A stretch of 64,000 nt of DNA from Lineus longissimus (taxonomy: Eukaryota; Nemertea; Pilidiophora; Heteronemertea; Lineidae): positions 12,092,001 through 12,156,000 of the forward strand of contig NC_088321.1 of the NCBI RefSeq assembly GCF_910592395.1, read 5' to 3'. Positions 2,172 to 50,866 of this stretch are shown here, one piece after another. The notes below the pieces were generated by a model. It did no database searches. It was not told the origin of the DNA and saw nothing but the letters and a program-made list of their open reading frames with translations. The position numbers and the translations under genes were made by a program. The first letter of the stretch is position 1. Each line of letters begins with the position of its first letter.

Positions 2172-5100
2172 ATGAAAATTTCCACAGCGATTTATGTTGT
2201 GTTATTCGCCCGACAGGAGGCAGTGCTGGCATTTCTATCCGCAATACTCACATGTTGTTCATCACGTGTCTCAATCCAAGCAAATCTCGGTGAAATTGGA
2301 ACGGCATCAAAAATCGAGTGCTGCCTTCAATGCACTGATAATGACTGTTTGACGATAAACCATATTTTAACTGAAAACCGGTGCCAACTCAGCTTTTCTA
2401 AACCGAAGCCGTTGAACGACGCAATGTCAAACTACAGTGGGGGTCGTTTATATTCAAAATGTAGACGACAGCATTCGGTAAGGGAAACATACCCTGTAAT
2501 AGTCCTGTTTCACCGATCTAGGACAATTTCTGCAAAATCGATTCAGTCGTTCGATTAACTATGTGAACAAGTCTAATTGAAGAGGTGATTGAGTGCAAGA
2601 ACAACTCCAGTCTTTATTTCATGTACTTTAGTATTTTCAGCACTAAACCCCTTCCCTGTCCGTCATTTTTTGCAGATAGCCACATGCAAATGTTTCTGAC
2701 ATGACTGGACAATAGCAACAGAAGGTACTTCTTGCACAAAACTTTTGGATTTTAAAGGAATTGTCATAAAACAGAGCCAATGCCACATTCTGAGAGCAGT
2801 TTTGATTTAAAAAATTCGCAAATCGTTTTGTCAGCCAGCCAACCCAGTGTTTATTTCACTTCTGGTGCTAGCAATATTTTTCAACAGTGACTTCAGTAGT
2901 TCTTGCACTGAGGTCTTCAATTATGAAAGACAATTGGTGGGCGACGCGCCAAGTTGTGCAGTGGTCATGTCGCCATGACATTGGCCTTGGCATTTATCTC
3001 GATTCGAGGTACATTGAACATTATTATACTACATGAAGTTAAAAAAGTGCACGGTCTTAGGTCGGTCAAACTAGGGTAATTAATTACAATGTTTGTAAGG
3101 TACATTTACATGTTGTCAGATTCGCGTGTGCAATGTCCTGTACAGCTACAATACCAAAGCAAAATGCGGAGAATCGATAACTTCGAGTTCAGGTCGCAGA
3201 TTTACCCAGTGCACAAGTTCATTCGATCCCACACCAAAGGTTACACTGGTACATCGATTCGGTTCACATTCATTACGTTTTGACTTGTTTTGCGAGGCGG
3301 AGTTTTGCAAGAGGTCTAAATCAGGATATTTTCAAAACATCTGTTTTAGATCCAAGCAGGATCGATCTTGCATAGCATAGCTTGTTATGTCTTGGAGGGA
3401 TAACTTGAGCAGGTCACGACCACGGGCTGAAGAAGCACCATGTAGTTCACGTTGTTTTCCAGTGTTGATGATAGAATCAATAACACAATGCAGTGCAGTG
3501 CAGTACGTTGGATGCGACATTGACATGCACTCAATGCAAGTGCAGCGTATTGCTAGAACATTGCACCCGCTACTGCTTCTGTCATATTGAAGTGGCACAC
3601 TATATCCGATAGAAGGCGCTATCACTCTTATAATGCTACGACGGAGACAGACTTTCACCAATAAAACACAACAAATGGTGTGCAGCGACAAAGACCCCAT
3701 TAGGTCACGTGGTGTGATATAACAGATGACCCGATGCAATCGTGGACCTTTTATCATGTTTATGCTTTGTTGCAAGTGTTTCCATGAATAAATTGCTTTA
3801 ATGCTGGCATCTTGTGCATTTGATTTGCTGTTGTCGTCACATAATGAACACACAATTATATTCAGAATGATCGGATACCTACCTCATGAATCCTAAGGGG
3901 ATAGATACACGGGGCAGAATGTAAAGTAATTTGAGGCTGGACCCATCAAAGCGAACGGACTTGTTTGAATGAGCGCAACGTTATAAAATTCTGAACATCT
4001 TGAACAAAAAACTTTAGGAGGCCTTCACCGAACGCTCAGCGCCATCTACATACACATGATGCTACCTCCTACTCAACATGTATGGCAAGCCGTGTGTCCA
4101 ATAATTTAGGAAACCTGGTTTTCATCTTTCAAAACTTAGTTTTATGGACGAAAACCAAGCTTTGTTCAATGAAAATAGGTTTTCTTTCAAGAAAACTAAG
4201 TTTTTAAAAACAATTTATTCTTTTTTGAAAAAGTATAAGTTTTATGAAAACCAAGTTTAAAAAAAGATAAAAACTATCTTTTCTTCCATATCACCTAGTT
4301 TTGTATGTTATTCTTCAATAAAAACCTAGTTTCATGAAAAATAAACCCATGGTTTTCTTCCATGAAACTAAGTTTGAAAGAAGAAAAACAGGTTTTACTG
4401 AAACCTAGTTTTTTTACCTCGTCTCCAACCCAACCTCTCCACATCAGACGAACCATGCGTGTCATGCTATGGAGATGAAGTAAAAAGACTAGTTTTTCTA
4501 GCATATGGATTAGAAACTAGGTTTTATAATAAATAACGTAGACTTTTTCAATAGAAACTAGGTTTTGATGAAGACATGTATATGACCTGGTTTTATTCCA
4601 CAAAACCAAGTAATCTTCTTCGAAACTAGGTTTGTATTGAAGAAGCATAGGTTTAATTTTAGTTTTTGACCAAGAAAACGTGGTTTATATAATAAACCTA
4701 ATTGCTTCTCCAATAAACCCCTAATTTCACTGAATAAAAGGTTTTCTTCCATGAAACTAAAATTGGAAAGAAGAAAACCAGGTCTTCTTCAATATAACTA
4801 GGTTTCCTAATGACAAGTTTTGGTCGTGTTTATGCGCAAGTGACTGCACTATTCATCGAATGTGATGATATATAAGATCGGCTATTATTGATCAATTCCG
4901 TATTTGGTGCGCCATTTTGCCTTGAAAGTTCGGAAATGTTCGAGAACATTAGGACATTACTAAAGATGATACAAATGGTGCCACTTATTGATGACGGTCG
5001 AAGGCAGTACTAACGGAACTTGGTGAAAAGGACATTGCATTGAATGATTTTCAGAAAACGTGGGAGAATATTTGCAGTAAAAAAGGAGGTGTAAATCGCG

Positions 5101-6675
5101 TCCAAGATTTATCGCTGTTCATGTGAGCGGTAACAAATCAGATCACGGTTCTAATAGAAGTACTCCTTGTCTAGTTTGGTATACTCTATCGTTTCACTGA
5201 TCTAAAACTGGTTCATTATATGGACAAGGAAATCAAAGCAGAGGCCAGTCCAGCACGAGGCGTCATTACCACAGGACAATTTGCTGTCAACAACCTCTTG
5301 TCTGTCGAAATTGAACATGTTGATTGGCATCAAACGCCCTTTTCTCATGATATCCGGCGTAAAATCGACTATGCAGAGCCGGTCTTAGATCAGCGAAACT
5401 AGAGTCTATGCATGTATTGTTAATTCTGTACACGATTCTTGTAGAATTCAATTATCAGGTAAGAAAAAAAGATCTCAGAAAGAATCTTTGAAGAATATTG
5501 TAAAGAATGTACATGCAAATGTACCAACTGAATAAGACCTTTAAGAAACAGGATTCTCGATCAGGGATGGCGTTCAGAGGAGACAATGGTAATAGTGCGA
5601 GCTTGTACTATTAGATGTGTACAACATTAAACTGGGCATGTATGCGTACAGATGGTACACGTGCATGCACGGTACAAATCATATACAAGTAAAATTGGCT
5701 GGCGAACTTTGTTCACGTAACCTCTTTATTTTCCTCAAGAAGTTTACATCATTCTCTTATCACCTTAGTCACAAACTTGCAATAAGTTCTGCTGTGCATT
5801 TTCAAAACTTTTATTATCATAAGCAAAGTGACTTGATTGTCTTAACCGATTTCACAGGAAATGAAACTTCAATAAGAACACTAAAGCTATATCCGGACTC
5901 TGGCAAGCTTGGATGGGCACAGGCAAGCTACGAAGGCATAATTAAAATTGTCGGTCAATATAAACAGTTCCTCATTGCTACTCCAATGACCCGCCTCTAC
6001 GAAAAGTTCATCATCGTTGGATTGGACGGCCAGTTGCGAGGAAGGCTAAAGTTCCAACACCTGAATAAAATCCAATTTAGCCTATCCAAGTACATGGACG
6101 TTTCATTTCTTCTTCTAAGTGATGCAGATTTGGGCGTTATCACACTTTTCTCTTTGGAAGGCTACTTTACGAAGTATTGTCACAACCGCATATCCAACAT
6201 GTCCAATGGCTCACTAATCCTAATTCTTACATGCAGAAACAAACTTAAGCCTTCCTTGAAATATTCTGCGTACACAAATTCTGGATTATTCGCATTTTGT
6301 TCAGGATTTATCAGTAATGGATCTCTTGTCAGTTGTTTTAATGCGAAGTCAAAACGCTCTAGCCATGCTATATTTTCTGTTAAAAAAACAGTTAAAACCA
6401 CATTCTTCTTCATTAGCGATGTCTACCATCGACTATTAATAGGAACTACTGATAACGAGGTCATGTTTATGAGTTGGCCGAAGGGAAATGGAGTTTCTTA
6501 CCATCAATTAAAACAAGACGACGTCTTCAAATTTAGTGGGGGTAGTCAGTTCGTTTTGTTGAATAATAGTGATCTTGTTCAGTTTTTAACGGATGGTGGT
6601 GCACAAGGAAGAAGAATTCTGACAATGTTGAAGGTGTACTCCCCGAGAGCAGGATGTGAAACGATCAAAGTGTGA
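2172..6675 (+). CDS. Gene A1: predicted secreted apple/PAN-like plus propeller-like protein, two exons
   Basis: Model: exon 1 2172-2477 (102 codons, donor GTAAGG), phase-0 intron, exon 2 5740-6675 (acceptor after TTTTCCTCAAG), 413 residues in all. Exon 1 has a hydrophobic N-terminus to about residue 27, then a cysteine pattern CC-x2-C-x4-C followed by single Cys residues and the ending YSKCRR. This resembles an apple/PAN domain (inference). Exon 2 has alternating beta-strand-like segments around FIIVGLDGQ, RLLIGTTDN and GGSQFVLLNN, suggesting a beta-propeller, and ends near YSPRAGC. Function is unknown; secretion is predicted. The ATG follows a GATAAATA box at 2137-2144, which may be TATA-like. 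The nearest AATAAA after the stop is at 7363-7368. Support comes from four copies with identical exon lengths and from two diverged homologues using the same junction phase. Extra exons within the 3.3-kb intron cannot be excluded. Confidence 0.75.
3120..3380 (+). CDS. A1 alternative terminal exon, Cys-rich (short isoform)
   Basis: The acceptor is ACATGTTGTCAG and the exon opens in phase 0, matching the exon 1 donor. It encodes 86 residues ending SCIA and a TAG stop, with seven cysteines in this copy, six of them shared by all four copies. The interval is 261 nt in every unit with no indel, although the flanks carry indels, and several of the few substitutions are silent in this frame. AATAAA follows at 3660-3665. 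I infer a short secreted isoform: exon 1 joined to this exon instead of the propeller-like exon. I do not recognise the domain. No transcript evidence is available to me. Confidence 0.45.
   Translation: MRVCNVLYSYNTKAKCGESITSSSGRRFTQCTSSFDPTPKVTLVHRFGSHSLRFDLFCEAEFCKRSKSGYFQNICFRSKQDRSCIA
3660..3665 (+). promoter_or_regulatory. Candidate polyadenylation signal of the A1 short isoform
   Basis: AATAAA about 280 bp after the stop of the alternative exon. It is conserved in all four units, and the intervening sequence is also well conserved. Confidence 0.4.
4109..4807 (+). repeat. AT-rich array of AAACCTAGTTT/AAACTAGGTTT motifs (unit 1 intron)
   Basis: About 700 bp made of short segments such as AAACCTAGTTT, AAACTAGGTTT, AAAACCAAGTTT and AAACTTAGTTT, separated by CTTCTTC or GAAGAAG spacers. 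The core variants are halves of the palindrome AAACCTAGGTTT and occur in both orientations, so the stretch can fold on itself. It lies in the A1 intron between the alternative exon and the propeller-like exon. Confidence 0.8.
4990..5402 (+). pseudogene. Decayed coding relic, unidentified (repeated in units 2-4)
   Basis: Translating one frame gives a protein-like string with internal stops: ELGEKDIALNDFQKTWENIC, later VHYMDKEIKAEASPARG and VEIEHVDWHQTPFSHDI before a stop at 5402. Counterparts lie at about 14400-14832, 23650-24067 and 33430-33865; units 2 and 3 have lost the ATG and shifted frame near the end. I do not recognise the source. It sits in the intron just before the propeller-like exon and is probably a dead gene or element fragment that predates the array. 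Confidence 0.3.
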
Positions 6676-6899
6676 CTCAGTAGATCTGAATACGGTTCTC
6701 ATCATTTCCTTCGAAGTTTCTTCAGTAACTAAAAATATCATTATTCTGCCATGGAGCATAATCCACTATTGCCGTTAGGTGGCGCATACAAATGATATAT
6801 GTACCATATGTAACAGAATAGGTAAGCATTTCAAGTTATTTTAAATAGGGACTTTACGAGCTCGGGGTCAGTTAACATGGTAAAGGGCAATGGGTTGTC

Positions 6900-7112
6900 T
6901 TTGATCCTGCGAACTCTTTTCAAGCAAACAAAAAGTTTACACTCAATATGTAAAATGGGTCTTCTTTAAGGCGGACGGCTGCTGCTGATTTCTTCAAACT
7001 GAACGAAGAAAAACAGGTAAATGGCAATGTTAACGCAGGTCGAATGACGAGATTATATTTAGATTCTTCAGAAACATTTGGTTACGATATTAACTGTGGC
7101 TAAAGGTATCAG
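6900..7112 (+). pseudogene. Decayed coding relic downstream of A1 (open in unit 3)
   Basis: In unit 3 (25558-25782) this stretch is open for 74 codons (FDPANSFQ, FFKLNEEKQVNGNVNAG, GYDINCGLRY). Unit 1 has two TAA stops in that frame and unit 2 (about 16330-16540) has an extra T. The mixed state argues for a relic rather than a working gene. The family is not recognised. Confidence 0.28.
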
Positions 7113-7362
7113 TTTGCTTGAGAAAAATACGTGCTTACCTGGAGAGAAAATGACTATACAAAAGAAATATTTAAAAAATATTTGTTAATTTGGAGGGGCC
7201 GAAAGGTCCGCATTTATTTATTTTTGTCCGATTGTACTCCTCCAACACTGTAATGGTGAGAAAGGTTTCTACTCTGATGCCCGATATACACATCCCCATT
7301 TCAACGTACGGAAAATTTTGTAGGAAAAAAAACACGTTTAGGTCTTCCTATTTTTCCCGTAC

Positions 7363-7368
7363 AATAAA
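7363..7368 (+). promoter_or_regulatory. Candidate polyadenylation signal of A1
   Basis: First AATAAA after the A1 stop codon, conserved at 16793 and 26023 in units 2 and 3 and lost with the truncation of unit 4. The distance (about 690 bp) makes use by A1 plausible but unproven. Confidence 0.35.
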
Positions 7369-8106
7369 ATGCTATACAATTTAATCTCACCGTGTACGAT
7401 GAGCTTGCGGTTTGATGTGCGTTTGACCGTTTATTGACTGGATACATGGGAGTAAGAGCCTACAGGCGCCTTTTAATGGTCGTCTTAGGATCCATTGTTT
7501 GGCCCGTTTCAGCGGTTTTCTTCTCTGTTTCCGACGGCAGGAGGAGCGTGAGACTCCCATCGCCAGATCATGACGGCTGCACACGATGCCGAGACAACTT
7601 TTAGTTTGGACAGTACCGGAGGTATTTTCAAAATGGATGGGAATATAGGGCCCTTACTGGTCTATAGTGCGGGATATGATCTATGCAGAATGTTACGTAG
7701 GCCAAGAGTCTCCAACCCAAATGTTCTTGAAGAATATTAACCCGGTTTGGTATCTAGTACACTAGTGGGTTAATCCTACCAAAACTTGCGACCCCGCCAG
7801 ACACGATCAATTTCTCAATCGTACTTAATCCTTCCTATAAAACAATGTACTCGTCGACGTCGGGTTAAGTTGGAGAGAAAATTGTAAACAAATATTTCAT
7901 AGGAATATGTTATCGTGTATAGCGGTCATAACACTGTATTGGGATGGCCTTGTTTCCATTGTGTTGCAAAGGTAAACCAATACCTTTAATTACCCACTGT
8001 GTTATTCAGTGTCGAATTAGTAGGTTAACACTTCAATAAAGAATATACTCATAAATTATTTACACGATTCTTGTATGATTCTTGTATGATTCAAGAACAA
8101 AGCAAA

Positions 8107-8511
8107 GTGGTGGAGAGAGACCCAACACGATTTACGAGATGGGTAAAGGATGCGAATTGGATTCGTAAAACCACCAACATGAATCGATGCACTAAGTCGC
8201 GTGTGGGATCAAAGTCTGACCGCTCCGACATCCAGCAGTCAGATGTCTAACTTCTGAAGAAGAATGGTGCAACCATTTGAAACGTCAATGTGATGATGAA
8301 CATTGATTGTGTAAAAACTGTTGATGACCCAAAGGACTCCACCAGGCATGTCAAAAATGTTGTATGGTTTATTAGACACCATGTGGGATTGCGGAGAGAA
8401 CCAGGATGCGCATGTCGTGTTGGAGTGTTGTCCGAGCTCGGTCGAGTGCATGTTAATCACGCGAATCATGATTTGATGATAGTATACCTTTGTTATTGTA
8501 GTTTTGTTTGA
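8107..8511 (+). pseudogene. Decayed retroelement C-terminal tail (units 1-3)
   Basis: Frame 8107-8250 reads RFTRWVKDANWIRK, then NMNRC, and stops. The unit 2 counterpart (about 17537-17680) reads RFTRWVKEAIRICK and NMNRD. A KEAI-x-I-K ... MNRD motif is typical of the C-terminus of reverse-transcriptase/GIY-YIG retroelements seen in marine invertebrates (from family knowledge). The following 73-codon frame (8290-8511; counterparts 17719-17940 and 27107-27328) starts ATGATGATG but changes residues freely between copies, and is probably the noncoding tail. Confidence 0.4.
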
Positions 8512-10940
8512 TAAGAATTCACTGCAAACATTTTTTTTATACAATATGCATATGATTTGAAGAAAAACATACATGTACTTGCAGACTGAGTATACACTGT
8601 AATATCAGTACGAGTTGATCTCGCTTGCTGACCAACTATGATATGATTCATTAAAAAACAACATACTACGCGGCTTTCAGCCTACATTAACATTGATTTT
8701 CATCAATCAATACTGACGGTTTACCTAATCGTTTAGGAGACAGGGGCAGTGTTCGTTAGGTTTCGACCATATAGACACGATAGACACAATCCCATGAAGA
8801 ATTATTGTTTACGACATCAGACTGATGGCTGGCAGTACCGTACGCCGAACATTATATAAGTGATATGAAAAGCACTTGAGATTATCGTGTGCGGAAGTGC
8901 TTTTTGAAGAACCAGTGGCATAATAAAGGGCTGCCGCTTCCTAGTTTCCTTTGCGCTCTAAAGAACTAGTTCCAGATATGAATGTGCACAAGAAAGGGAA
9001 AATTCGAAATATTACTGAATTATCCCTTATTTCCGTGCAGCGATCATATCTATTGACAACGCGCAGCCTTAGCTGGGGAATATGAAGGCATCATCTTGTC
9101 GGAGGTCGATCACCCCGATACCAAGACGACACTGACAATTATGTTAGATCAGAGTCGTTGCACTATCAGCGAAAAGTCCGGTAAGTTTTTGTCGCCCGAT
9201 GTGTCTACGAGGACTATGAACCCACACACCGGTCGGCAGACGGGGCGGAATAAAATTTCCACATCCGGCTCGCATAGGCTTGAGTAAGTAACTAAGGTAA
9301 CCGAACAGTAAGCAAGTACACCTACCCATGCGCAACCCTAACTGGATTTGGATAATTTTGAAGTGGAAGACTCCATGGCGACGTAATCAAATATCAAATC
9401 GTCTTTAAAGTAGATTTTTGGCGGTATTTTATTGGTTGTTCGCGAGGGGGATGGGGGGCAGATACATGCAGAGCTCGTTATGTATGTTGGATAACAACCA
9501 CGATTAGCAAACATGTAGATATGGAAACGACGCTGATATTAATGAGAATGAATACCTACTGATTATGATATGCTTGTTACAAGAGACATACCGTATTGAT
9601 TATTGAGAATGTAAACAACTAATCGGCAGCATCATGTGCGTTGGGCATGCTATGTTTGGTCTGTTCCTTATGTTTAGTCTATATGATTGGGATCAGCGTG
9701 GACTTGAATGACCTCGGCTATTGGTTATCGCGTGATGTCGTATTCCCGGTGGGTAAATGTATCTGTTGGCCTAAGAAAAATACGTGCTTACCTGGAGACA
9801 GACAAAAGATTAGTTCATTTTGAGGGGCGTATATCAGGCCCGCATTCATTATTTTTAGCCTTGTTTCTATTGTGTTGCCTTCATCCACCGTGGTATTGGT
9901 CACAAATTTGACTCATTCCACGATCTTTCCTCGGGATGAACTGATGTAGTTTGCGTGTTTTTTTCCGATAGGACAAAGATATACAACTCCAAAAAAGCCG
10001 GCTATTTCAGTTTTATATTTTACAGTTCGATCGTGACAGTGCACTTGCATACAGTGTATATGATTTAACAAACAATTGTATGTGTGAAAATCGACGCCAC
10101 ACAAATACGTTACTCCAGATATTGTGTTCCCTTTAGGTGGCAAGTGGTGGGCCACTACTTCCTAGCCACGAGGCACATTCCGCACTTGGGAGATTACGAC
10201 TTGACTGGTTGTCATATTGAGCGATTGGAACCTTAGCCAGCATCAGTTACTCGTAACATTTTGACCAGGCTTAAATCGAATTCTCATTGCAATCTCTGTC
10301 TTCGGACACACGAACAGTTACCTTTTTTTACAGACTGCCAAGACCCTGATTCAAACCTTGTGCCGCAATAAGTATGAAAGCCGATTACGAGTGTTGCGTA
10401 CGTGAGTTTGCGTGCTTGAGCATGCTTGATGACATACACTGATCTGTGTTCATCGCAATTTGTCTTTTGTAAGGGTTGCAAAACATACATATTTCAATGG
10501 AACTTGTCCTTTTCCAAATCGAGTGCACGCAAGTACAAATAGTGTCATCTATCCGGGGAAATGTGTCTGTAATGGCTCAGTTCGTCATATCTACATATTA
10601 CTCTGAATTTCGTCAGATATTTTTGAGCCATATTCATTGTGAAATACAGCAAAATGTAAATTATGCATAACACAATGAAATATTAATGTCTGTTGTTTGA
10701 AATAATACAGCCATCAATTGCTGATCGTTTGATATAATGCTATAAGCCGTAATTATACACTTCTGCATTACTCTCCATCACTCCACTAGACGGCACGGAA
10801 GTATACTTTTCGCCGCATCGAAGCCACATGATGACAGAGAATACGTTGTCGGCTGCACTTTCAAAAGGTTTTCGAAGTTATTTTACTCTCAGAAATTAGT
10901 GAATTCAAGTGAATGAAACCAACCACATTTTATTTACTCA

Positions 10941-11198
10941 TCACAGTAGGACATATTGTTGTGACTTAAAGGCCCCCCAATGGCGGTCCCCAAAAGGAAC
11001 CATGTTCTGAAAGATAGACACGCCTATGGGAGACCAAGAAGTTACCTTTAATACGATGCATGCCTTTATTGCAGTTGACGAAAAACCAAGTGTATTTGAT
11101 TTGGCACTGGTCAGTCTATAGGCCTGTGCTTCGGCCTCGGTCGGCCTGCCAAATTTCCGCATTATGGAAACACAATTAACGCTCCAGAATTTCAAAAA
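10941..11198 (-). CDS. Candidate minus-strand terminal exon (unit 2)
   Basis: Counterpart of 1551-1814 with a six-base in-frame deletion (CVSIMRKFG). AATAAA is preserved on the minus strand just after the stop. Confidence 0.22.
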   Translation of the reverse strand, partial: FLKFWSVNCVSIMRKFGRPTEAEAQAYRLTSAKSNTLGFSSTAIKACIVLKVTSWSPIGVSIFQNMVPFGDRHWGAFKSQQYVLL

Positions 11199-11550
11199 CT
11201 GTCAGTCAGCTCAACCTCGTGCTCATGTTGCCTCTGTCCTGGTTTACACTGACCCGTACTTGAAATTGCAGCGAAAGAGGCTGGTAGCTTTTTCTGACTA
11301 GCCCGGTCTGCCCGGCTGGGACAGAATTTCTGTTCCACTCAGGTCGACGGTGGACTTTTTGTGTCGATTGTTTTTTTATCTTTTACTCCGTCAGCTGCGC
11401 CACCTAGAGTCAAGTTAGATGTGATGGCTGCGCCATCTAATGTAGAAATATCATACGTAACTTAGAAATAATGGCTCCAATCAAATATTAGTTGTACTCT
11501 CTGTAAGGGAAACAAGATAAATACTGCAGAAAAAAATACAGCGACCAGCA

Positions 11551-14500
11551 ATGAACATTTCCACATTGATTTATGTTGTGTTATTCGCCCGACAGGAGGC
11601 AGTGCTGGCATTTCTATCCGCAATACTCACACGTTGTTCATCACGTGTCTCAATCCAAGCAAATCTCGGTGAAATTGGAACGGCATCAAAAATCGAGTGC
11701 TGCCTTCAATGCACTGATAATGACTGTTTGACGATAAACCATATTTTAACTGAAAACCGGTGCCAATTCAGCTTTTCTAAACCGAAGCCGTTGAACGACG
11801 CAATGTCAAACTACAGTGGGGGTCGTTTATATTCAAAATGTAGACGACACCATTCGGTAAGGGAAACATGCCCTGTTTTGCCGATCTAAGACCGTTTCTG
11901 CAAAATCGATTCAGTCGTTCGATTAACTATGTCAACAAGTCTAATTGAAGAGGTGATTGAGTGCAAGAACAACTCCAGTCTTTATTTCAGGTACTTTAGT
12001 ATTTTCAACACTAACCCCTTCCCTGTCCGTCATTTTTGCAGATGGCTACATGCAAATGTTTCTGACATGACTGGACAATAACAACAGAAGGTAATTCTTG
12101 CACAAAACTTTTGGGTTTCAAAGGAATTGTAAAACATAGCCAATGCCACATTCTGAGAGCAATTTTGATTTAAAAAATTCGCAAATCGTTTTGTCAGCCT
12201 GCCAACCCACTGTTTATTTCACTTCTGGTGCTAGCAATATTTTTCAAAAAGTGACTTCAGTAGTTCTTGCACTGAGGTCTTCAATTATGAAAGACAATTG
12301 GTGGGCGACGCGCCAAGTTGTGCAATGGTCATGTCGCCATGACATTGGCCTTGGCATTTATCTCTATTCGAGGTACATTGGACATTATTATATGTACATG
12401 AAGTTAAAGAAACGCACAGTCTTAGGTCGGTCAAACTAGGGTAATTACTTACAATGTTTGTAAGTCTCGTCGATGACAAAGCTAGACTGTAATATACTTG
12501 ATGCAACACATATATATTTTGATAGTAGGTACATTTACATGTTGTCAGATTCGCGTGCGAAATGTCCTGTACAGCTACAATACCAAAGCAAAATGCGGAG
12601 AATCGATTACTTCGAGTTCAGGTCGCAGATTTACCCAGTGCACAAGTTCATTCGATCCCACACCAAAGGTTACACTGGTACATCGATTCGGTTCGCATTC
12701 ATTACGTTTTGACTTGTTTTGCGAGGCGGAGTTTTGCAAGAGGTCTAAATCAGGATATTTTCAAAACATCTGTTTTAGATCCAAGCAGGATCGATCTTGC
12801 ATAGCATAGCTTGTTATGTCTTGGAGGGATAACTTGAGTAGGTCACGACCACGGGCTGAAGAAGCACCATGTAGTTCACGTTGTCTTCAAGTGTTGATGA
12901 TAGAATCAATAACACAATGCAGTGCAGTGCAGTACGTTGGATGCGACATTGACATGCACTCGATGCGCGTACAGCGTATTGCAATAACATTGCACCCGCT
13001 GCTGCTTCTGTCATATTGAAGTGGCACACTAAATCCGATAGAAGGCGCTATCACTCTTATAATACTACGACGGAGACAGACTTTCATCAATAAAACACAA
13101 CGAATGGTGTGCAGCGACAACGCCCTCATTAGGTCACGTGGTGTGATATAACAGATGACCCGATGCAATCGTGGACCTTTTATCATGTTTATGCTTTGTT
13201 GCAAGTGTTTCCATGAATAAATTGCTTTAATGCTGGCATCTTGTGCATTTGATTTGTTGTTGTCGTCACATAATGATCACACAATTATATTCAGAATGTT
13301 CGGATACCTACCTCATGAATCCTAAGGGGATAGATACACGGGGCAGAATGTAAAGTAATTTGAGGCTTGACCCATCAAAGCGAACGGACTTGTTTGAATG
13401 AGCGCAACGTTATACAATTCTGAACATCTTGAACAAAACTTTAGGAGGCCTTCACCGAACGCTCAGCGCAATCTACATACATATGATGATACCTCCTACT
13501 CAACATGTATGGCTAGCCGTGTGTCCAATAATTTAGAAAACCTGGTTTTCTTCTTTCAAAACTTAGTTTTATGGAAGAAAACCAAGCTTTGTTCAATGAA
13601 AATAGGTTTTCTTTCAAGAAAACTAAATTTTTAAAAACAATTTACTCTTTTTTGAAAAAGTATAAGTTTCATGAAAACCAAGTTTAAAAAAAGATAAAAA
13701 CTATATTTTCTTCCATATAACCTAGTTTTGTATGTTATTCTTCAATAAAAACCTAGTTTCATTGAAAAAAAACCCATGGTTTTCTTCCATGAAACTAAGT
13801 TTGAAAGAAGAAAAACAGGTTTTACTGAAACCTAGTCTTTTTACCTCGTCTCCAACCCAACCTCTTCCCATCAGACGAACCATGCGTGTCATGCTGTGGG
13901 AACGAAGTAAAACGACTAGTTTTTCTAGCATATGGATCAGAAACTAGGTTTCATAAGAAATAACGTAGTCTTTTTCAATAAAAACTAGGTTTTGCTGGAG
14001 ACATATAACCTGGTTTTTATTCCACAAAACCAAGTATTCTTCTACGAAACTAGGTTTTTATTGAACAAGCTTAGGTTTAATTTTGGTTTTTGACCAAGAA
14101 AACGTGGTTTATATAATAGACCTATACTAATTGCTTCTCCAATTGAAACCTAGTTTCACTGAATAAAAGGTTTTCTTCCATGAAACTAAGTTTGGAAAGA
14201 AGAAAACCAGGTCTTCTTCAATATAACTAGGTTTCCTAATGACAAGTTCCGGTTGTGTTGATGCACAAGTGACTGCACTATTCATCGAATGTGATGATAT
14301 ATAAGATCGGCTATTATTGATCAATTTAGCATTTGGTGCGCCATTTTGCCTTGGCAGTTCGGAAATGCTCAAGAACATTAGGACATTACTAAAGATGATA
14401 CAAATGGTGCCACTTATTAATGAGGGTCGAAGGCAGTACTAACGGAACTTTGTGAAACGGACATTGCATTGAATGATTTTCAGAAAACGTGGGAGAATAT

Positions 14501-16106
14501 TTGCAGTAAAAAAGGAGGTGTAAATCGCGTCCCAGATTTATCCCTGTTCATGTGAGCGGTAACAAATCAGATCACGGTTCTTATAGAAGTAAACTTTGTT
14601 CAGTTTCGTGTACTCTATAGTTTCACTGATCTAAAACTGGTTCATTATATCGACAAGGAAATCAAAGCAGAGGCCAATCCAGCACGAGGCGTCATTACCA
14701 TAGGACAATGTGCTGTCAACAACCTCTTGTCTATCGAAATTGAACATGTTGATTGGTATCAAACGCCCTTTTCTCATGATATCCAGCGTGAAATCGACTA
14801 TATATGCAGAACCGGTCTTAGATCAATGAAACTAGAGTCGTGCATGTATTGTTAATTCTGTACACGATTCTTGTAGAATACAATTATCAAGTAAGAAAAA
14901 AAGATATCAGAAAGAATCTTTGAAGAATCTTATAAAGCATGTACATGCACATGAACCAACTGAATAAAACCTTTAAGAAACTTTCCAGGATTCTCGATCA
15001 GGGATGGCGTTCAGAGGAGTCGATGGTAATAGTGCGAGCTATTAAATGTGTACAACATTAAACTGGACATGTATGCGTACAGATGGTACATGTACATGCA
15101 CGGTACAAATCATATACAAGTAAAAATGGCTGGCGAACTTTGTTAACCTAACCTCTTTATTTTCCTTAAGAAGTTTACATCATTCTCTTATCACCTTAGT
15201 CACAAACTTGCAATAAGTTCTGCTGTGCATTTTCAAAACTTTTATCATCATAAGCAAAGTGACTTGATTGTCTTAACCGATTTCTCAGGAAATGAAACTT
15301 CAATAAGAACACTAAAGCTATATACGGACTCTGGCAAGCTTGGATGGGAACAGGCAAGCTACGAAGGCATAATTAAAATTGTCAGTCAATATAAACAGTT
15401 CCTCATTGCTAGTCCAATGACCCGCCTCTACGAAATGTTCATCATCGTTGGATTGGACGGCCAGTTGCGAGGAAGGCTAAAGTTCCAACACCTGAATAAA
15501 ATCCAATTTAGCCTATCCAAGTACATGGACGTTTCATTTCTTCTTTTGAGTGATGCAGATTGGGGCTTTATCACACTTTTCTATTTGGAAGGTTACCTTT
15601 TGAAGTATTGTCCCGAATGCAGATCCAACATGTCCAATGGCTCATTAACCGTAATTCTTACATGCAGAAAGAAACTTGTGCCAACCTTTAAATATTCTGC
15701 GTACACAAATTCTGGATTATATGCATTTTGTTCAGAAATTATCAGTAAAGGATCTCTTGTCAATTGTTTTAATGCGAAGTCAAAACGCCCTAGCCATGCT
15801 ATATTTTCTGTTCAAAAAACAGTTAAAACCACATTCTTCTTCATTAGCGACGTCTACCATCGACTATTGATAGGAACTACTGATAACGAGGTCATGTTTA
15901 TGAGTTGGCCGAAGGGAAATGGAGTTTCTTACCATCAATTAAAACAAGACGACGTCTTCAAATTCAGTGGGGGTAGTCAGTTCGTTTTGTTAAATAATGG
16001 TGATCTTGTTCAGTTTTTAACGGATGGTGGTGCAGTAGGAAGGAGAATTCTGACAATGTTGAAGGTGTACTCCCCGAGAGCAGGATGTGAAACGATCAAA
16101 GTGTGA
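11551..16106 (+). CDS. Gene A2: predicted secreted apple/PAN-like plus propeller-like protein, two exons
   Basis: Exons 11551-11856 and 15171-16106, the same lengths and phase as A1, giving 413 residues. The reading frame just upstream of the second acceptor contains TAA in this copy, so the terminal exon cannot be translated from an upstream in-frame ATG as it could in A1, A3 and A4; the exon itself is intact. Exon 1 starts MNISTLIY and has Phe after the CQ near residue 76, both as in A4. The second exon groups with A1 near its C-terminus (GGAVGRR) but with A3 in the variable patch (KYCPECRSN). AATAAA lies at 16793-16798. Confidence 0.74.
12549..12809 (+). CDS. A2 alternative terminal exon, Cys-rich
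   Basis: Counterpart of 3120-3380 with the same acceptor, phase, length (261 nt) and stop. The first cysteine is Arg here (IRVRNV). AATAAA lies at 13089-13094. Confidence 0.45.
   Translation: MRVRNVLYSYNTKAKCGESITSSSGRRFTQCTSSFDPTPKVTLVHRFGSHSLRFDLFCEAEFCKRSKSGYFQNICFRSKQDRSCIA
13536..14235 (+). repeat. AT-rich CTAGG-type array (unit 2 intron)
   Basis: Counterpart of 4109-4807 with scattered substitutions and small indels. Confidence 0.8.
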
Positions 16107-19100: not shown

Positions 19101-19770
19101 CTGTTCCTTATGGCTAGTCCCAGCTAAAAAAGAATCTCGTTTGCGGGTTGATCTAGACCTATATGATTGGGATCAGCGTGGACTCGAATGACCTCGTTGA
19201 TTAGTTATCTCGTGATGTCGTATTCCCGGTGGGTGAAGGTATCGGTCGGCCTAAGAAAAATACATGCTTACCTGGAGAGGAAGTGACGACACAAAAAAAA
19301 CAGACAAAAGATCAGTTGATTTTGAGGGGCGTATATAAGGCCCGCATTCATTATTTTTAGCCTTGTTTTTATTGTGTTGCCTTCATCCACCGTGGTATTG
19401 GTCACAAATTGGACTCATTCCACGATCTTTCCTCGGGATGAACTGATGTTTTTTGCGTGTTTTTTTCCGATAGGACAAAGATTTACAACTCCAAAAAGCC
19501 GGTTATTTCAGTCTTATATTTTACAGTTCGATCGTGACAGTGCACTTGCATACAGTGTATATGATTTAACAAACAATTGTATGTGTGAAAATCGACGCCA
19601 CACAAATACGTTACTCCAGATATTGTGTTCCCTTTAGGTGGCAAGTGGTGGGCCACTACTTCCTAGCCACGAGGCACATTCCGCACTTGGGAGATTACGA
19701 CTTGACTGGTTGTCATATTGAGCGGTTTGAACCTTAGCCAGCATCGGTTACTCGTAACATTGTGACCCGG

Positions 19771-28265: not shown

Positions 28266-28281
28266 GGGGGGGGGGGGGGGG
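28266..28281 (+). repeat. Poly-G tract in unit 4
   Basis: Sixteen consecutive G at the position matching 41-76 of unit 1. Confidence 0.85.
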
Positions 28282-38935: not shown

Positions 38936-41900
38936 ATGAGAGCCTATTCAACGACTGCATGTATATTAATAGTGGTTAGTTCACGACGCTTTGCAACACT
39001 ATCCATGACAGCCACCATATTCAAACTTGGAACACTGCATATTTCGATCACTGGACCAGAGTTTGTTGAAATACTAGTCCCGTCGCTACTACAGTGCTGC
39101 TTCAAATGCAGCGCAGAGAGGTGCTTAACACTAAATTACCTTTATCTGGAAAACATATGTCAGATTAGTTCAATGAATGTCCGGGCCTTGGAGGTTGTTC
39201 CTGATGCAAGTGGTCGGTCGTACTTGCAGTGTCCGGATTCTGTGGTAAGCGATATCATGTACAGTCATGTACAAATCATAATCAAATATAAAATATGTCA
39301 CTTGTGTTGCAATTTTCTTTTTTCATTACAAGAATTAGCCACACAGTCACCGAGCTCATTGACTCATTCGGTCAGAAATTAAAAAAAACTCGAAGTGCAA
39401 CAATCTCTTGTATTCACTTTGGTGACACAGTAAGAAGTCCAATCCGAGCAATAGCATAGGTGATAAACAATGGGTCCCAAACAGAATTTCACACCAGACA
39501 TATTACCTCCAACCACTTCCTTGTATTGTGTACTAGTGTTTATTTAATTGGTTGCCTCGGAATAATAGGAAAATTAATGATGTTGTGGCATTGGCGTTGT
39601 CTAACATGGCGTTATCGGTAACGTGAAATAACGCCATGATTAGAAAACGCCAATTCAATACATTTGCATCATAAAGAGAGATGAAGTAATTTATTTTCTG
39701 AATTTGATGCCGATGCTTAACTCAGCAATCGTGATGTGTTTGTGTGCACCAGTCGGAGGCCTTTTCCGACTTCTTAACGGTTTCTCTAACGTTTTCCTAA
39801 TTAATCCGATAAAATTCCGATATTGTCCGTTTTTCCCTGAAAAATACCTGAAAGATACCAGGGCTTCCTAAAAAAGAGCCGTAAATATCAATGGATCATG
39901 TTGAATGGGGTTAATGAGGTGTGAGCCAAACACCCAAAGTGACCCCAAATGGAAGTATTGATTAGCTCACTTAATTAGGTCACTCTGAGTGTTTGGCTCA
40001 TACCTCATTAACCGCATCCAACAAAGGCCTTTGATCGTAAACGCCCTATTTTGGGAAGCCATTGGCTAGTATTTTTCGAGAAATCCGACCTTTAAGGAAA
40101 TAGTCGGACAATGTCGGATTTTGTCTGACAAATTAGGAAAATGCTAGAGAAACCCGTTAAGAAGTCGGAAAAAGCCTCCTCCTAGAAATAGTTCAAGACA
40201 CGAAATCGACTACTAATAAATAGTGCTGAAATGCATAAGGGCGATGCACTATGAGAACCAGCTACCTGTATTAAAATCATGTTGGTGGTCAAGGACTGCG
40301 TGTCAGTCTAACTATATATCAGCGTGGCGAATGGAGTCTTTTACAAATAAATTATGTTTGAACTCTTAGATTATACATTGGTTATCACGGCGAGAACAGG
40401 AAATGACTGGGTATCTTTGTCTCGAGATCCTATAACCCCAACAACATATGTTGGGGCAAGTACACTATTGATGGGTGTCAAGAGTACAATATACCCTACT
40501 CAAGATACTATTAACTAATGAATTTTCGCTAATTTGCCGAAGCGCCAATGCGAACGCCTGTCTCACTGATTGACAACGTGATCAGGAGTTCGAACAATGG
40601 GAAAGGCGCTCGCGGTGATTTGCGAAAACTCCTTATTGTCCAAACACTCGTAGACTGAGCACCGAGATCGATAGAAAACAGGACGCATGACTTGGTCATC
40701 AATGTTCATCTCCTCGACGTTGCAAGTGGTCAGGCTCTGTTGAGAGCCGAAGCATTTCCTAAACTACATACTAGGCACATATAAATGTACTACGACTGGT
40801 GAATAAAGGACCGTGCAGTGAAACTGTGCACGAGTTACAACAATTTTACCTATATTATGTCATCCCCCACCTCCGTAAGATCATAACCACACTTGATTAT
40901 TCATTTTTATAGAGAATAATTAAGATTAATCGAGGAAACCAGCAGACCCAAAACAGGCTTCCTAAGTGCGCCGATAGGCGTATCTTTCATTCGGAACGAT
41001 TTCATCACCGAACTAATAAATTGTATAAATCCCTGACTGTGCACGGCTTTCTGTGCTGTTACTTAATACCGGATATGTTCCACGCGGACTGAGACTCTTG
41101 TTCATGTATGGATTGTGGGGTGTTTTTTGGCTCAAGTAAATAAGGTCGTTAAAATAATCTCAGACTTGGACATTGATAAACATTTGGTGTTAGTTTTTAA
41201 CTGGGTAGTTTGATGTACTTATTTGAACTACAGAGTGAGATTCTAAAGTCGATTGACCCTTTCCCGACCACCACTGGGTCTGTGGTTTGCGTAAACCATG
41301 TAAAAAAGGAAAATGAAATAGTACTTTTTATTGGTCTCCTGCAAAATGAAATAGTTAGATATACAACAACACCAGAACTAGAGGATTTTGTACTAAAAAC
41401 GTCTTTGACAATTCGTTTAGTACAGACACAACTATCCGTTCACGATGGTCATCATTTCTATTCATATTGGCATCATGTTTGGCGCTGCTAAACTGTGCCG
41501 CATGAACACGACTACTTTGACTCATATAGCTCCCTCCCCGATAATCACAAGTAAGAGGCTTTTCCCGACTTCTTAACGGTTTCTCTAACGTTTTCCTGAT
41601 TTATCCGACATTGTCTGACTTTTCTCTGAAAGGTATAAGATGTCTAGAAATACTGTGAAAAATTCTAGGCCTTCCCAAAATAGGGCATTAAAGAACAAAG
41701 GCATATGTTGAATGGGGTTGATGAAGTGACCTGATTGAGTGAGATAGCTAGTATGCAGCCTGAGGGTCGCTCTGCGTGTTTGGCTCATACATCATTAACC
41801 CCATTCAACATAGACCTTTGATTTTTATTGCCTTATTTTGGGAAGAACTGGTATTTTTCACAGGTTCTTTTCAATCTGACCTTTCAGGGAAAAGTCGGAC

Positions 41901-42956
41901 AAAGTCGGAATTTAGTCGGATAAATCAGGTAAAAGTTAGAGAAACCGTTACGAAGTCGGCATAGGCCTCCTGCTAATGTATAACATTGTCATTTATGTGT
42001 TTTCATTATTGTTATTAATGCACTTAAAGAAACAGCAGTCGTTTTCTTACCATCTTCACCATGTGATAGCTCTGAATTTCTCAGTCCCTGTTTATGAGAT
42101 TTTTTATCACAAAGAAAACGATGTTGTCATAGTGACTTCACTCTTAGAGGCAAGAACAATTGTCAATGTATTCAAAATCGACCCAATGAAAGGTGAATTG
42201 AGACAAGTTGGTTCACAGAAAAGTTTCAATCCACAGGCTAGGGTTATTGGCGAATATGAACAGTTTCTAATCGTGACGCCAGTGGCGGGATCCGGATTAT
42301 TCGTATTCCTCGGATTGGATTGTCGATACAAGGGGAGAATCTCGTTTAAGAATATTGAGCAGTCTTTCGTCGACCAATGTAGAAGGGTTCAGATTGTTTT
42401 CGATAATACACAGTCGCGGAGAATTCAGATGTTGTTGGTGGCTTATCATGATGGTGAGTATATGAAGCTGAACTGTTTGTCCTTTGAAATGCGGTCGAAA
42501 TCAGGATTTACATTGGTCTCGCAGTGCCAGTATGGTGGTCCATCTGTCAAATTTCTTACAAGCTCTTATGCGGGGTCTTTTGCATTGCTGAAAAAAAGCT
42601 TATCACGGTCATCAATTTTTAATGTATTTGACGCAAAAACAAGAGACGTTTTGAAGGTGAAATTATCGATAGCCAACGTGACGGATGTAAAATTTCTGTG
42701 CATAAATGAGGTTTACCAGATATTTCTGATTGGAATAGCAAGGAACAGAATTATACTGTTGAAATGGCAAGAACTGAAGCAGAAAAGTTTCTATAGGATA
42801 AAACAGGAAGACATTATTAAATTCGGTGGGAATGGTCAGTATATCATCTTGAACAGTGGGGAGTTAGTCCTGTTTGAGACTAGTGTCGCTCAACCTAGCG
42901 GTCAGAGGAATCTGACTCAGTTGAGGATTTATTTATCTGGGACTGGATGCTGGTAA
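38936..42956 (+). CDS. Gene A5: diverged member of the apple/PAN-like plus propeller-like family, two exons
   Basis: Model: exon 1 38936-39244 (103 codons, donor GTAAGC), exon 2 42030-42956 (acceptor TGCACTTAAAG), phase 0, 411 residues. Exon 1 keeps the N-terminal hydrophobic stretch and the CC-x2-C-x4-C pattern with LNYLYLENIC. Exon 2 keeps the family landmarks: FSYHL near the start, an FLGLDC block in place of IVGLDG, INEVYQIFLIGIA, a glycine-rich FGGNGQYIILNSGELV block, and a C-terminal GTGCW. It lies outside the tandem array and is clearly older than the A1-A4 duplications. A foldback element (41552-41973) sits in the intron 56 bp before the acceptor. An ATG at 41976 is in frame with exon 2, so an unspliced start is conceivable. 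Confidence 0.7.
39754..40182 (+). mobile_element. Foldback element B, full length (~430 bp)
   Basis: The left arm starts GGAGGCCTTTTCCGACTTCT and the right arm is its inverted complement ending GAAGTCGGAAAAAGCCTCC. The inverted symmetry runs through almost the whole element, including AATGGGGTTAATGAGG against CCTCATTAACC. No ORF; a non-autonomous DNA element located in the A5 intron. Confidence 0.8.
40520..40632 (+). mobile_element. Hairpin element, diverged copy (~113 bp)
   Basis: Shares CGAACGCCTGTC, CAACGTGATCAGGAGTTCG and TGCGAAAACTC with 52717-52842 and has the same inverted layout. Located in the A5 intron. Confidence 0.55.
41552..41973 (+). mobile_element. Foldback element C, full length (~420 bp), in the A5 intron
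   Basis: Same family as B: left arm AGAGGCTTTTCCCGACTTCT, right arm ending GAAGTCGGCATAGGCCTCC. Possible TA at both ends. It ends 56 bp before the A5 exon 2 acceptor, so it may supply or displace branch-point sequence. Confidence 0.8.
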
Positions 42957-46095: not shown

Positions 46096-49000
46096 TCAGC
46101 GAAGGATAGCACTTTCAGAGCCGCACCCAGCGTATGGTGAATAGATCCTCAACATTGCAAGGTATTTCGTACCCGGCGCCGCAACACCGTCATCATCATT
46201 TTCTTGATCCTTTTGATTTTCTGTCACTAACTGTACAAGGTCACCATCATTAAGAAGAACAAATTGCTGACTCCCTCTAAATTGGATGATGATGCCTTTT
46301 CTGTTAGTTTGTTTAACATTTTTATTTACTTTTGCCCAATCTGTCACAAATATCTTGTTTCCAGAAACTCCAATGAGAAACTTATGATGGACTTCATTTA
46401 TAAACAGAAAGTTGACCATGATGCTCCTCAGAACGGGGAGCCGCCTTGATATAGTTGTACCTGTTATCGCGTTATAGAAATATACTTCAAGTATTGAAAT
46501 TGTCTTTTCCCAGAAGGCAAACGAACCCAGATGTGCACGGGATAGATTTTTCAATGTTTCTTCGCGAAACTTTTTCTCTTTGCATATTAGATAAACGTCT
46601 ACATCATCATTTAAGTCACTTTCGAACACATTAGATTGACACGGCAAAACGTAAGTGGTACCCAAATCGAGGTATTTGATCATAACGAGAGGTTTGTGCT
46701 TTTGCATTATAATTGAAACATCCTTGTATGAAGACAGTCGTGCGCTTAGATTCTTTTGCATTTTAATATTTCCCTTTTTCCGGCCGTCCAAACCTACGAA
46801 TAGATATTCACGGCTGCCATTGACATTAGTCACAATGAGTAACTTTCTATACTCGCTGACAATCTTGATTCTGCCTCTGTAAGTTTTCTGTGATTTTTCA
46901 AGTGCACCTGTAAAACGGGACTATATTGAAAGTTGTCTGATTTGTTTTTTAAACTGAATACTGTAGAAAAGAAATATTTCGCTTGCATAATTTTTCGCAA
47001 AAAAATCTGCTGCGAAATCCTCTAACTTTTCACAAGAATTCTACACCTATAAGTTCCTATTCAGTTGATCATCGCACTAACCATACGAAGGTGATTGGAG
47101 TGCCCGCGTATACACTGCGCAATTAGCATATATCATAATTACACCATACCTGAGTCTTTCAATTATATTACTTGAAAGGCTATACAAGCACAAATTTCGG
47201 ACCTCTTTAATGAGTTTGGCCTAATTAATGCCAACGTTTGTGTGCTCAAGGCGTGATGACTCGAAACAATGCCAATGAGACTATGGATTTTAGTATATTT
47301 TAAGCCTAAACACCAGAGTTCTACTTCACATTTTTGGCAAAAATTTGACTTGCGTCACGAAAGTATTCTGCCGCGAAGACGTCCATCGTTCGAAATTCGC
47401 GAAAATTGTATGCCGCGAAAATGTTCTGTTCTACAGTAAGTAGTAAGTCGGATGTGGGGCATATGGAGAGGCAGCTAGTAACACCTATATGCGTATTATC
47501 CCAGTATTTGTGTAAGATACATACAGATACTGGCAGATACTGGGTTAATACGCAGATAGGTGTTAGTAAGGCTTTAATGTCACAACCTAAGAGTGGATCG
47601 AAACTGACATAATTGTATATTGCCAGTGATTGCTTTAAAAAGCAGGTCTGTCGACGTTCTTTCATATTGTGTGTGATAAGTTAACGACACTTCGTGTGAA
47701 TGTGGACATTGGAGAATTAATCTAAACCAAGAGATTTGGCTTCACAGTATAGAAACAATAAATATCAAATAAGGCAGCTTTCAATATTGGGCCAATACAA
47801 ACCTGTAACTGGGTGTATCCTTACTATTGTCATCAGAGTGCTGTTCGCTGTCAAGAGGACCAATACTATCGAGTTGCTTTGCTGGTGATAGTAATAATCC
47901 CGAAACTGCACTGGGAGTGCGAGCTCTCGTCCAGGGTAGTAAGAGAATAGAAGCTGTTTCTGAAACACATTTACAATGCTCACACCAGACGTTATGATAA
48001 GCTTGTAGAGTGCTGCCACCAACACTTGTTTACCACTCGCCCCCGGGGGCTAGAAATTTTACGCTGAGAAAATGAATCGTATCGATGTTGACGACATGTG
48101 TACGTTCATCTGTTTTTGTCGCTGCTTCAACTGGCGACCCTCTTAGATGGTGCACACGTCGTCATCGTCTGGAGCATGTGTTCTCTGTCATCCTTTTTTG
48201 TGCCACTAAAAAGATCATTATGACCTGTGTGGTATGCTTGTGATGCATGTACTAGTTTATGTGCACAAGTGTGTTTTATATTCTGTATTGAGTGTGTACT
48301 GTTTTATTTATTGCTATGTTCTTGTATTCACGAAGAAAATCTACTAAAGTTGATATTTCCATTTTTGAGTCAAAGAAATGTGTAGACAAACGCCATACAA
48401 TAAATGATCGATGTACAGTAATACAGTTCACACTTAGCAACATGATCAAGATCATTCTTGATATAAGGTAAATAAATTAGCATGACCACCATGTACGATC
48501 GGCCAGGATGCATACCTCAACCTTTCTTCAAGTTATTTCTTAACAAATGTGATCGTAGATTTGACAGCAAAAAATAAAGATTTAAAAAGAACTCATTCCT
48601 TCTTTAACGAATGGCCGGCGATTATACCCAAATCACCCTAAAAAAAGGTAGACACAGCTCTAGCTGATCTCAACAGCATTGCCAGTTCACAATAGATAAG
48701 GAGTTAAGACCTTTAAAACATATTTGAGTATTGTGGTGTCCCTTTCCCGAAGGTGCGGGATAGGCCTACATGTACAGGACTTGCGTGCGCCCCTGTCGTT
48801 ACTTGCGTCATATTTAGAAGCCTTTGAGTATCGCTATGCAAACGTAATTCTTGCTCAGATCTAAAACAGGGATTTCAAGTCACCCTACTTCAGATCTTAT
48901 GCAAAACTCCGCTTCGCACAACAGGTAACTAGCCATTAATTAATCATGATTGGTTATGCCTTAAATTGACGAGTTATGTAAGAATACACCACGCCCATAT

Positions 49001-50866
49001 CACAAATCAAGATAAGTCCTTTATAATATGCGTATAAGGTAGCATGTGCTTGCACATGTTTATCCATAAGAATACTCTTCGTTAGGGTCTTAGTTAAGAA
49101 TACTCTTAATTAGGGTCATAGTTAAGAATCTTACAAAAAAAACAACGTGTAACTAATGTATACATCACTAGTAGGAGGCTTTTTTCGAACAGTCTGATAA
49201 CTTTTCCCTGATTTATCCGACAAAAGTCCGACACTGTCCGACTATTCCCTGAACGGTCGAATTTCTAGAAAACCAGTGAACAATATTATGACTTCCCGAA
49301 ATAGGGCATTAAAGATCAACGGCCTATGTTGAATAGGGTTAATGAGGGGTGTTATATAAGTGAGTGAGCTTATTAGTATTCACACCTAGGGTCACTCTGA
49401 GTGTTTGGCTCACACCTCAAGCTGCATTTACACGAAATGGAAAAACATCTTTGGGTCTCTTTTGGCAGCAGCTGGGTAGGAAAGAAAAAAGTTTCAGAAA
49501 GCTGCCGACAGGAGTCTCTACCACTCCCATGTACGTCAAAACTATTTTCATTTGTACGAAAAATATATATTTAGTGATGATTCAAACATGACCCGGTGTA
49601 AAAGTAAAAAGTGTCCCCCCTAGAAAAAGTGTCCGGGCCTATTGTATTCTGACAGATTATGGCATATGGTTCTATAGAGGCAATGACCGTCACTAGCTCA
49701 GCGCATAATATAATCCTTTGTTCCCGGACATTGTATCCTAGGACATTTTAAACTTCTACACCGGTGTTGAATGTTTTGTTAGATATGAATAACATTCTCC
49801 AGCGCAGACATATCATTCAAGCATATTATCTCTGCCAGTATTGGCGTCCAACATGTCCATTGGACATGTAATGCGTGCATGTAACACACACATGTACGCA
49901 ACAAGAATGCTCAAATAAAATGCCATATATTCCCGATTCCTAAACTATTTTCGAGTCTGGTCTTATATCGCCTTGTTAGATATAACTAACGTTAATATTT
50001 ATTCCTGTTTTGCACCCATAGAAACTGTTCTATTGTCATACGCTAAAATTCGTTTTGGGAGGAAATATTTCGACCATTGACTTGAAAAACACCTAACATT
50101 AATTGGTTTTGGCATTTTTGAAATAAAAAAGGCACACAAATTCCAGTAGATACCTGGATGAGCGATTTCAGATTTCCGATCCAATGGTGGCCAATTCGAG
50201 CAGCGACAGTATGACCTCACGATCATCACCTCACTGGGCCGGAGTATGAGGAATTATTTCAAACATTCCGCCAAATTTGACATCAATGGAAAAGTTGACT
50301 TTACTTTGGCGAAATACAAAATGTTCCCCGATCGAAGGTTCAAATAATATTCTTATTAAATTCTTAGTTAAGGTATTACTAAGTGCCATGTACAGAAAAT
50401 AACACGATCCAGGTATTAAGAGTATTGGTAAAGAACCTAACCAATTCCTACTAAAAACTAAATGGTTACTGTAAATATACTTAATCAATAGACATTTGAT
50501 TACGACCTTATCTTAAAATATTCTAAGAATCTTCTCTTGATTATCAACCAGATTTTTTATTTACTTTACCTTCTTTCTACACTTAGAATATAACAGACCC
50601 TGTCTTGAGTGTGGAATATTATCCAAGTAACGTGGTCTAAAACCATTCAACCGGCATTTGTTACTGACGACCAGATAGTTAATCGTCACGCAGCGCACCA
50701 GCGCTATACATCGAGAGCAACAATTGATACGCGATGGGGCAAACACTTCCTCAATATCAGGTTTTCTCATCGAAGATCGCAACGGGCCTAGCCAAAGAAT
50801 GGCAGATGTAGCTGTTGTCTCTTGTCGTAAAAAGAATGTAATGAAAATCACCAACGATGGTTTCAT
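46096..50866 (-). CDS. Gene A6: diverged family member, three exons, opposite strand
   Basis: Exons, reading leftward: 50866-50570 (99 codons, donor GTAAAG, phase 0), 47959-47803 (acceptor TGTGTTTCAG, donor GTTTGT, phase 1) and 46907-46096 (acceptor GTTTTACAG), totalling 421 residues in one continuous frame. Exon 1 has a signal-peptide-like start, then INCCSRC, VTINYL and a YSKCRK ending as in A1-A4. Exon 2 has LLFSYYPG and YYYHQQSN, matching FSYHL and YYHKQSD of A1. Exon 3 has LFVGLDG, INEVHHKFLIG, SQQFVLLNDGDLVQ and the C-terminal YSPYAGC. The phase-1 intron lies where A1-A5 are uninterrupted. The gene is tail-to-tail with A5. Function is unknown. Confidence 0.72.
47479..47565. repeat. Small hairpin in A6 intron 2 to intron 1 region
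   Basis: Imperfect inverted repeat: TAACACCTATATGCGTATTA at the left and TTAATACGCAGATAGGTGTT at the right, with loop around 47510-47536. It lies in the intron between A6 exons 2 and 3. Confidence 0.65.
49172..49430 (+). mobile_element. Foldback element fragment D (left arm and centre)
   Basis: Begins TAGGAGGCTTTTTTCG and follows the family to GTGTTTGGCTCACACCTCA. The right arm is missing. It lies in the first intron of A6. Confidence 0.7.

Follow-up and report, generated by a model that had tools for sequence, protein, structure and literature searches.

PAN/apple domains (PF00024), represented in Toxoplasma MIC4, coagulation factor XI, and plasminogen, commonly mediate protein or carbohydrate binding. 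Their core is described as having four to six cysteines (PMC9249922). Large sets of similar genes have arisen by lineage-specific expansion in recognition families of invertebrates, such as SRCR genes (PMC10855680), and toxin genes of the bootlace worm, Lineus longissimus, are reported in tandem (PMC10674772). The published assembly of this ribbon worm comprises 391 megabases, mostly in 19 chromosomal pseudomolecules (PMC8593623). Here we describe a stretch of 64,000 nucleotides from L. longissimus (C14:12092001-12156000, the window, in whose positions gene coordinates are given) that carries six related genes, A1 to A6. They belong to a multigene family, young and arranged in tandem, whose members have two exons (three in A6) and encode proteins with a signal-peptide-like start, a PAN/apple-like domain, and an orphan domain of ~310 residues.

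Six genes at the end of a larger array

Profiles of exon 1 and exon 2, compared with the 2207 six-frame stop-to-stop open reading frames of at least 20 residues in the whole window, matched six loci only, with the C-terminal domain of A6 in two pieces. In all six, exon 2 encodes sequences resembling the VGLDG, LIG, and QFVLLNNGDLV landmarks and ends in the residues GC, and A1 exon 2 reaches A5 at E = 3e-41 and A6 at E = 2e-33 by tblastn; this likeness exceeds chance. A preliminary description of the window had recognized four recent and two diverged copies sharing a C-terminal part of ~310 residues with these landmarks and an end near AGC, and we found all six, each bearing these landmarks or closely similar ones. 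The CC-x2-C-x4-C motif and phase-0 junction that it ascribed to the whole set apply to A1-A5; A6, on the minus strand, has CC-x2-C-x5-C and an additional phase-1 intron within the C-terminal domain. A1-A4 sit in direct repeat units that are mostly ~94% identical to each other. A degenerate CC-x-x-C reading near 56643 on the minus strand was set aside; the family profile did not pick it up. In tblastx comparisons of the introns, those of A5 and A6 share repeat-like similarity, and A1 and A6 gave one weak palindromic match; we read neither as a hidden exon.

The six loci, described earlier as a six-gene cluster, are real, but they form the right end of an array of 26 copies. Searching the genome with A1 exon 2 gave 35 matches, among them 26 recent copies at C14:11.856-12.127 Mb (24 full-length and 2 split in two) and three older copies, 35-36% identical, at 11.820, 11.826, and 11.860 Mb on the same contig, the last of which sits between the first two recent copies. 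The other matches were A5, A6, one locus on C12, and one on C7. The sequence of A1 exon 2 recurs unchanged in a copy 139 kb away, and its protein is the same as that of C14:11958996; nearest relatives within the array are often not neighbors. Two of the older exon-2 copies (C14:11860067-11860969 and 11825976-11826878), 34 kb apart, were read as differing by a single residue, which marks them as recently duplicated among the older copies.

Exon 1 was located in the fetched sequence for 22 of the 26 array copies, every one with an open frame and a GTAA donor. The genome search with A6 exon 1 returned 33 matches at E <= 0.1, none containing a stop: A6, A5, two older C14 copies, 23 array copies, the C12 copy, a C14 fragment at 11843081, and four further candidate matches, on C11, C1 (two), and C15. 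At this threshold the search did not reach the first exons of the C7, C9, and C19 members.

Relatives of exon 2 extend to C6, C7, C9, C10, C12, C13, and C19. The C7 exon 2 gave 40 matches at E <= 1, including members on C7, C10, C19, and C9, and reached the C14 array from E = 1.7e-5; a C9 member as query gave 20 matches at E <= 0.01, adding C6 and strengthening C13. Membership of C6 and C13, both at E ~3e-4 to 1e-3, is provisional. Members on C6, C7, C9, C10, C13, and C19 are mostly open frames of ~300-405 residues, and the exon-2 superfamily also forms small clusters, for example, at C7 8.59-8.61 Mb, C13 15.46-15.57 Mb, and C6 14.68-14.69 Mb.

These independent copies give the best reason to place both exons in one gene. 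Paralogs on other contigs are only ~20-30% identical, and the order of a PAN-like exon followed by the large exon is kept at C12 and C7, where phase-0 junctions were read, and at C19 and C9, where a PAN-like stretch lies upstream. In one older C14 gene, read by eye, donor and acceptor are both phase 2, having shifted together. The joining of exon 1 to exon 2 that had been proposed was also borne out for A5: a protein search with the exon-2 alignment led to a single protein, LOC135498907 of L. longissimus (411 residues), and our predicted A5 splice is identical to it residue for residue. LOC135498907 is an NCBI gene model independent of our prediction, and may or may not rest on transcripts.

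That model was the sole protein found in searches with 3528, 5703, and 5303 candidates, which revealed no relative outside Lineus; candidates had to share exact 5-residue words, so that remote relatives in other animals may be missed. No family relatives were found in viral contigs, prokaryote contigs, or phages, and at the level of listings no literature on this family was found under the locus name or for nemertean or Lineus PAN/apple proteins.

Domains of the predicted proteins

The assignment of the N-terminal domain as PAN/apple-like, made in the preliminary description, held up. The curated Pfam cut-off for PAN_1, 21.4 bits, is exceeded by exon 1 of A6 (25.6 bits) and of the C7 paralog (34.3 bits). 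A1 (15.4), A2 (13.7), A4 (14.8), A5 (20.5), and the C12 paralog (14.4) score below it, and A3 was scanned against PAN_1 only within an alignment; the assignment of A1-A5 follows from their homology to A6. Searched against PDB, a seven-member exon-1 profile matched the apple domains of Toxoplasma MIC4 (E = 7e-5) and microneme antigen L2 (E = 0.0044). No PDB match was obtained from the six window copies by themselves, and apple domains appeared once paralogs were added. All six window copies share six cysteines (C50, C51, C54, C59, C71, and C97 in A1 numbering), of which the C7 paralog lacks the second and the last.

A hydrophobic 9-mer, with a mean of 2.46-3.17, lies within the first 38 residues of all six proteins for which it was computed (A1, A5, A6, and three paralogs); hydropathy is the sole basis on which we assign a signal peptide. 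None of the four most hydrophobic 19-mers of A1, A5, and A6 is C-terminal, and N-glycosylation sequons occur in all three. The N-terminal hydrophobic stretch and the sequons point to secreted proteins.

The C-terminal domain appears to be an orphan, without a credible match in Pfam, NCBIfam, or PDB, in agreement with the earlier description, which knew of no named family with this architecture. Nothing better than E = 0.051 was obtained from Pfam and NCBIfam in the members scanned. The best Pfam match among 13 diverse members was PSII_BNR, in one member, at E = 0.057 and 13.1 bits against a cut-off of 27. We took as chance both an NCBIfam lipoprotein family (one member, E = 0.051) and a 14-3-3 protein in PDB (E = 0.089); the remaining four PDB sequence searches gave no match.

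The description of this domain as propeller-like did not find support, and we reject it as a proven propeller, given the lack of a propeller-family match and of a significant repeat. In self-comparisons with three queries, residues ~46-107 pair with ~196-253 at an offset of ~150, none significantly (P = 0.27, 0.056, and 0.13), and in the query with P = 0.27 this pairing was only second-best; other self-comparison showed no repeat. An AlphaFold2 model of A1 exon 2, built from six sequences, has one helix and ~20 strands, but with a predicted local distance difference test score (pLDDT) of 41 and a predicted template modeling score (pTM) of 0.28 it is unusable. A propeller fold is possible.

Frame retention, divergence, and window layout

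A1-A4 contain no stops and no gaps in either exon. The 85 changes among their second exons would be expected to produce 4.3 stops in simulations with the intron substitution pattern, and zero stops arose in 1.4% of runs. Across the 24 full-length exon-2 copies, to which the count was confined by leaving out the two split copies, 2 stops were seen against ~21.6 expected from the tree length; recombination inflates that length, and with the expectation halved P = 0.0014. Gap events number 2 across the 936 columns of exon 2 and 19 across the 700 columns of the intron (Fisher p = 6e-6), ~13-fold rarer in exon 2, in a comparison of 19 of the 26 copies that includes the two split ones. The frames are protected, and there is selection against breakage. 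Over residues 2-311, 23 of the 26 recent exon-2 copies are open; of the 3 broken ones, one carries an internal stop and two are frameshifted, and the second piece of one frameshifted copy also has two stops. One further array copy has a stop in the first exon-2 codon, at the splice acceptor.

The encoded residues, by contrast, change at a near-neutral rate. For the 24 copies the pairwise ratio of nonsynonymous to synonymous differences (pN/pS) is 0.80 (bootstrap, 0.57-1.20), and the corresponding rate ratio, omega, does not depart from 1 overall (0.89, p = 0.32). By thirds of exon 2, omega is 1.26, 1.00, and 0.52, and the last third alone differs from 1 (p = 0.005). Residue change is highest in the middle third, and the 24 copies encode 23 distinct proteins. 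Among A1-A4, 33 of 58 replacement changes fall in one 93-codon stretch, a clustering reached in 0 of 5000 permutations.

The coordinates of the gene models and repeat units are collected in Table 1.

Table 1. Exons of the six gene models and tandem units, in window positions
Feature	Position	Strand	Remarks
A1 exon 1	2172..2477	+	Hydrophobic (signal-peptide-like) N-terminal stretch and PAN/apple-like domain; 102 codons; donor GTAAGG; phase 0
A1 exon 2	5740..6675	+	C-terminal domain, ~311 residues; single exon including stop
A2 exon 1	11551..11856	+	
A2 exon 2	15171..16106	+	
A3 exon 1	21260..21565	+	
A3 exon 2	24401..25336	+	
A4 exon 1	30583..30888	+	
A4 exon 2	34208..35143	+	Right-most recent array copy
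A5 exon 1, diverged copy	38936..39244	+	Part of NCBI model LOC135498907
A5 exon 2, diverged copy	42030..42956	+	Spliced A5 equals LOC135498907 protein
A6 exon 1, diverged copy	50570..50866	-	PAN_1 above Pfam cut-off
A6 exon 2	47803..47959	-	Start of C-terminal domain; 157 nucleotides; phase-1 donor AG|GTTTGT
A6 exon 3	46096..46907	-	Remainder of C-terminal domain, including stop
Four tandem units	64..35380	+	Starts near 64, 9446, 18877, and 28266; first three ~9.4 kb, fourth shortened

The A3 repeat unit contains tandem duplications at 19770-20088 (157-base units) and 20384-20459 (37-base units), upstream of A3 exon 1. Within the A5 intron, a ~200-base repeat occurs at 39755-39945, 39978-40184, and 41764-41975 with 77-78% identity; relative to 41764-41975 one copy is inverted and one direct, tblastx shows similarity to part of the A6 intron, and the repeat has the appearance of a small mobile element. 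About 3 kb beyond A6 lies a minisatellite at 53776-54941, with 27 copies of a 43-base unit and 93% matches. CpG observed/expected is 0.95 over the whole window, indicating little CpG depletion, and no Rfam families or tRNAs were found in it.

Candidate roles and known systems

We judge the chances about even that the genes encode secreted binding proteins kept as a diverse repertoire. The frames stay open while residues, chiefly those in the central part of the C-terminal domain, change at an approximately neutral rate. Under this model, the PAN and C-terminal domains would bind proteins or glycans; unequal exchange and conversion would shape the array; and the array would provide a set of similar binding proteins for changing targets, among which could be microbes, prey, epibionts, or other individuals. 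A role in recognition, adhesion, or defense is plausible. The fuller proposal, that ribbon worms possess a recognition repertoire of ~20 intact genes in one array, with older members on up to seven other contigs, an unrecognized domain, one variable C-terminal segment, a kept frame and last third, and many secreted binders per individual, is put forward tentatively, as something we would rather doubt than assert.

The array might instead supply a bulk structural, mucus, or extracellular-matrix protein, copy number serving as gene dosage. Many near-identical copies, the identity of two exon-2 sequences 139 kb apart, and the sequons of A1, A5, and A6 would suit such a protein, but dosage predicts strong conservation, whereas the overall omega is not different from 1 and almost every full-length exon-2 copy encodes a distinct protein; we consider it decidedly unlikely. 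Kept frames, free residues, and high copy number together are more in keeping with a repertoire of binders than with an array that serves dosage. Another view, the least probable of those weighed here, is that A5 and A6 are real genes and that most array copies are unexpressed and drifting, in an array that is decaying or hitch-hiking. Near-neutral omega, the 3 of 26 copies broken within the domain, the at least two without exon 1, and the failure to find array copies in the protein database fit this view; the 23 of 26 open second exons, the 23 of 23 array first exons without a stop, the rarity of gap events relative to the intron, and the constrained last third of exon 2 argue against it.

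Ribbon worms use venom and toxic epidermal secretions (PMC9132205), and five Cytotoxin-A loci of L. longissimus stand in tandem (PMC10674772). The family might accordingly comprise venom or defensive-mucus effectors from proboscis or skin glands, acting on prey or predators and expanded like ribbon-worm toxins, and its proteins are of secreted type and contain cysteines. We regard this as unlikely, however: no toxin family was among the Pfam matches of the exons scanned, and the proteins exceed 400 residues, larger than the known nemertides. In the main text of these two papers the whole word "PAN" is absent, and "apple" occurs once, in PMC10674772.

Several observations weigh against a secreted, diversifying repertoire. 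In A1 the best hydrophobic 9-mer does not begin until residue 18, and internal 19-mers score as high as 1.72 (A1), 1.83 (A5), and 1.75 (A6), so that a membrane segment is possible. Partial duplication has left two array copies without exon 1, and for two more the upstream stretch fetched held none. Positive selection was not significant in the first third of exon 2 (p = 0.29) or the second (p = 1.0), and since omega is nowhere significantly above 1, relaxed constraint fits as well as diversifying selection. Synonymous differences are also raised in the 93-codon hotspot, part of which is therefore locally fast or unconverted sequence; the cluster alone is no proof of adaptive change. The C-terminal fold model, as described above, lends no help. 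Finally, A5 is the only one of the six window genes present in the protein database searched (~5.8 billion proteins), where neither the array proteins nor the A6 protein were found; masking of a high-copy array or a lack of expression could each explain this gap.

To our knowledge, little is known about self/non-self recognition in ribbon worms, a whole phylum, and a large, mostly intact, fast-changing family of secreted type with an orphan domain offers a concrete starting point. The array copies are a natural series for the study of gene conversion and repertoire building. If the recognition proposal is true, they would be largely invisible to present annotation. The recovery of A5 alone suggests that gene families may escape annotation when they lie in tandem arrays of nearly identical copies.

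The N-terminal exon of the family resembles PAN/apple proteins by PAN_1 and by the MIC4 profile match, those to factor XI (E = 0.1-1.3) and plasminogen (2.2) being weak, but here one PAN domain is joined to an orphan domain of ~310 residues. The PDB entries 6ryv, 6ryw, and 6ryx ("Kelch domain-containing protein"), which we take to be fungal copper oxidases, combine PAN with a Kelch propeller; only their PAN part matched, not significantly (E = 7.4-7.5), and neither Kelch nor any other propeller family matched the C-terminal part of our proteins, nor is there evidence of oxidase chemistry. With the tandem toxin genes the family shares its species and tandem duplication, without a toxin-family match in the scans made. 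It is like the invertebrate SRCR expansions in the lineage-specific multiplication of many similar genes, although the domains that have been multiplied differ.

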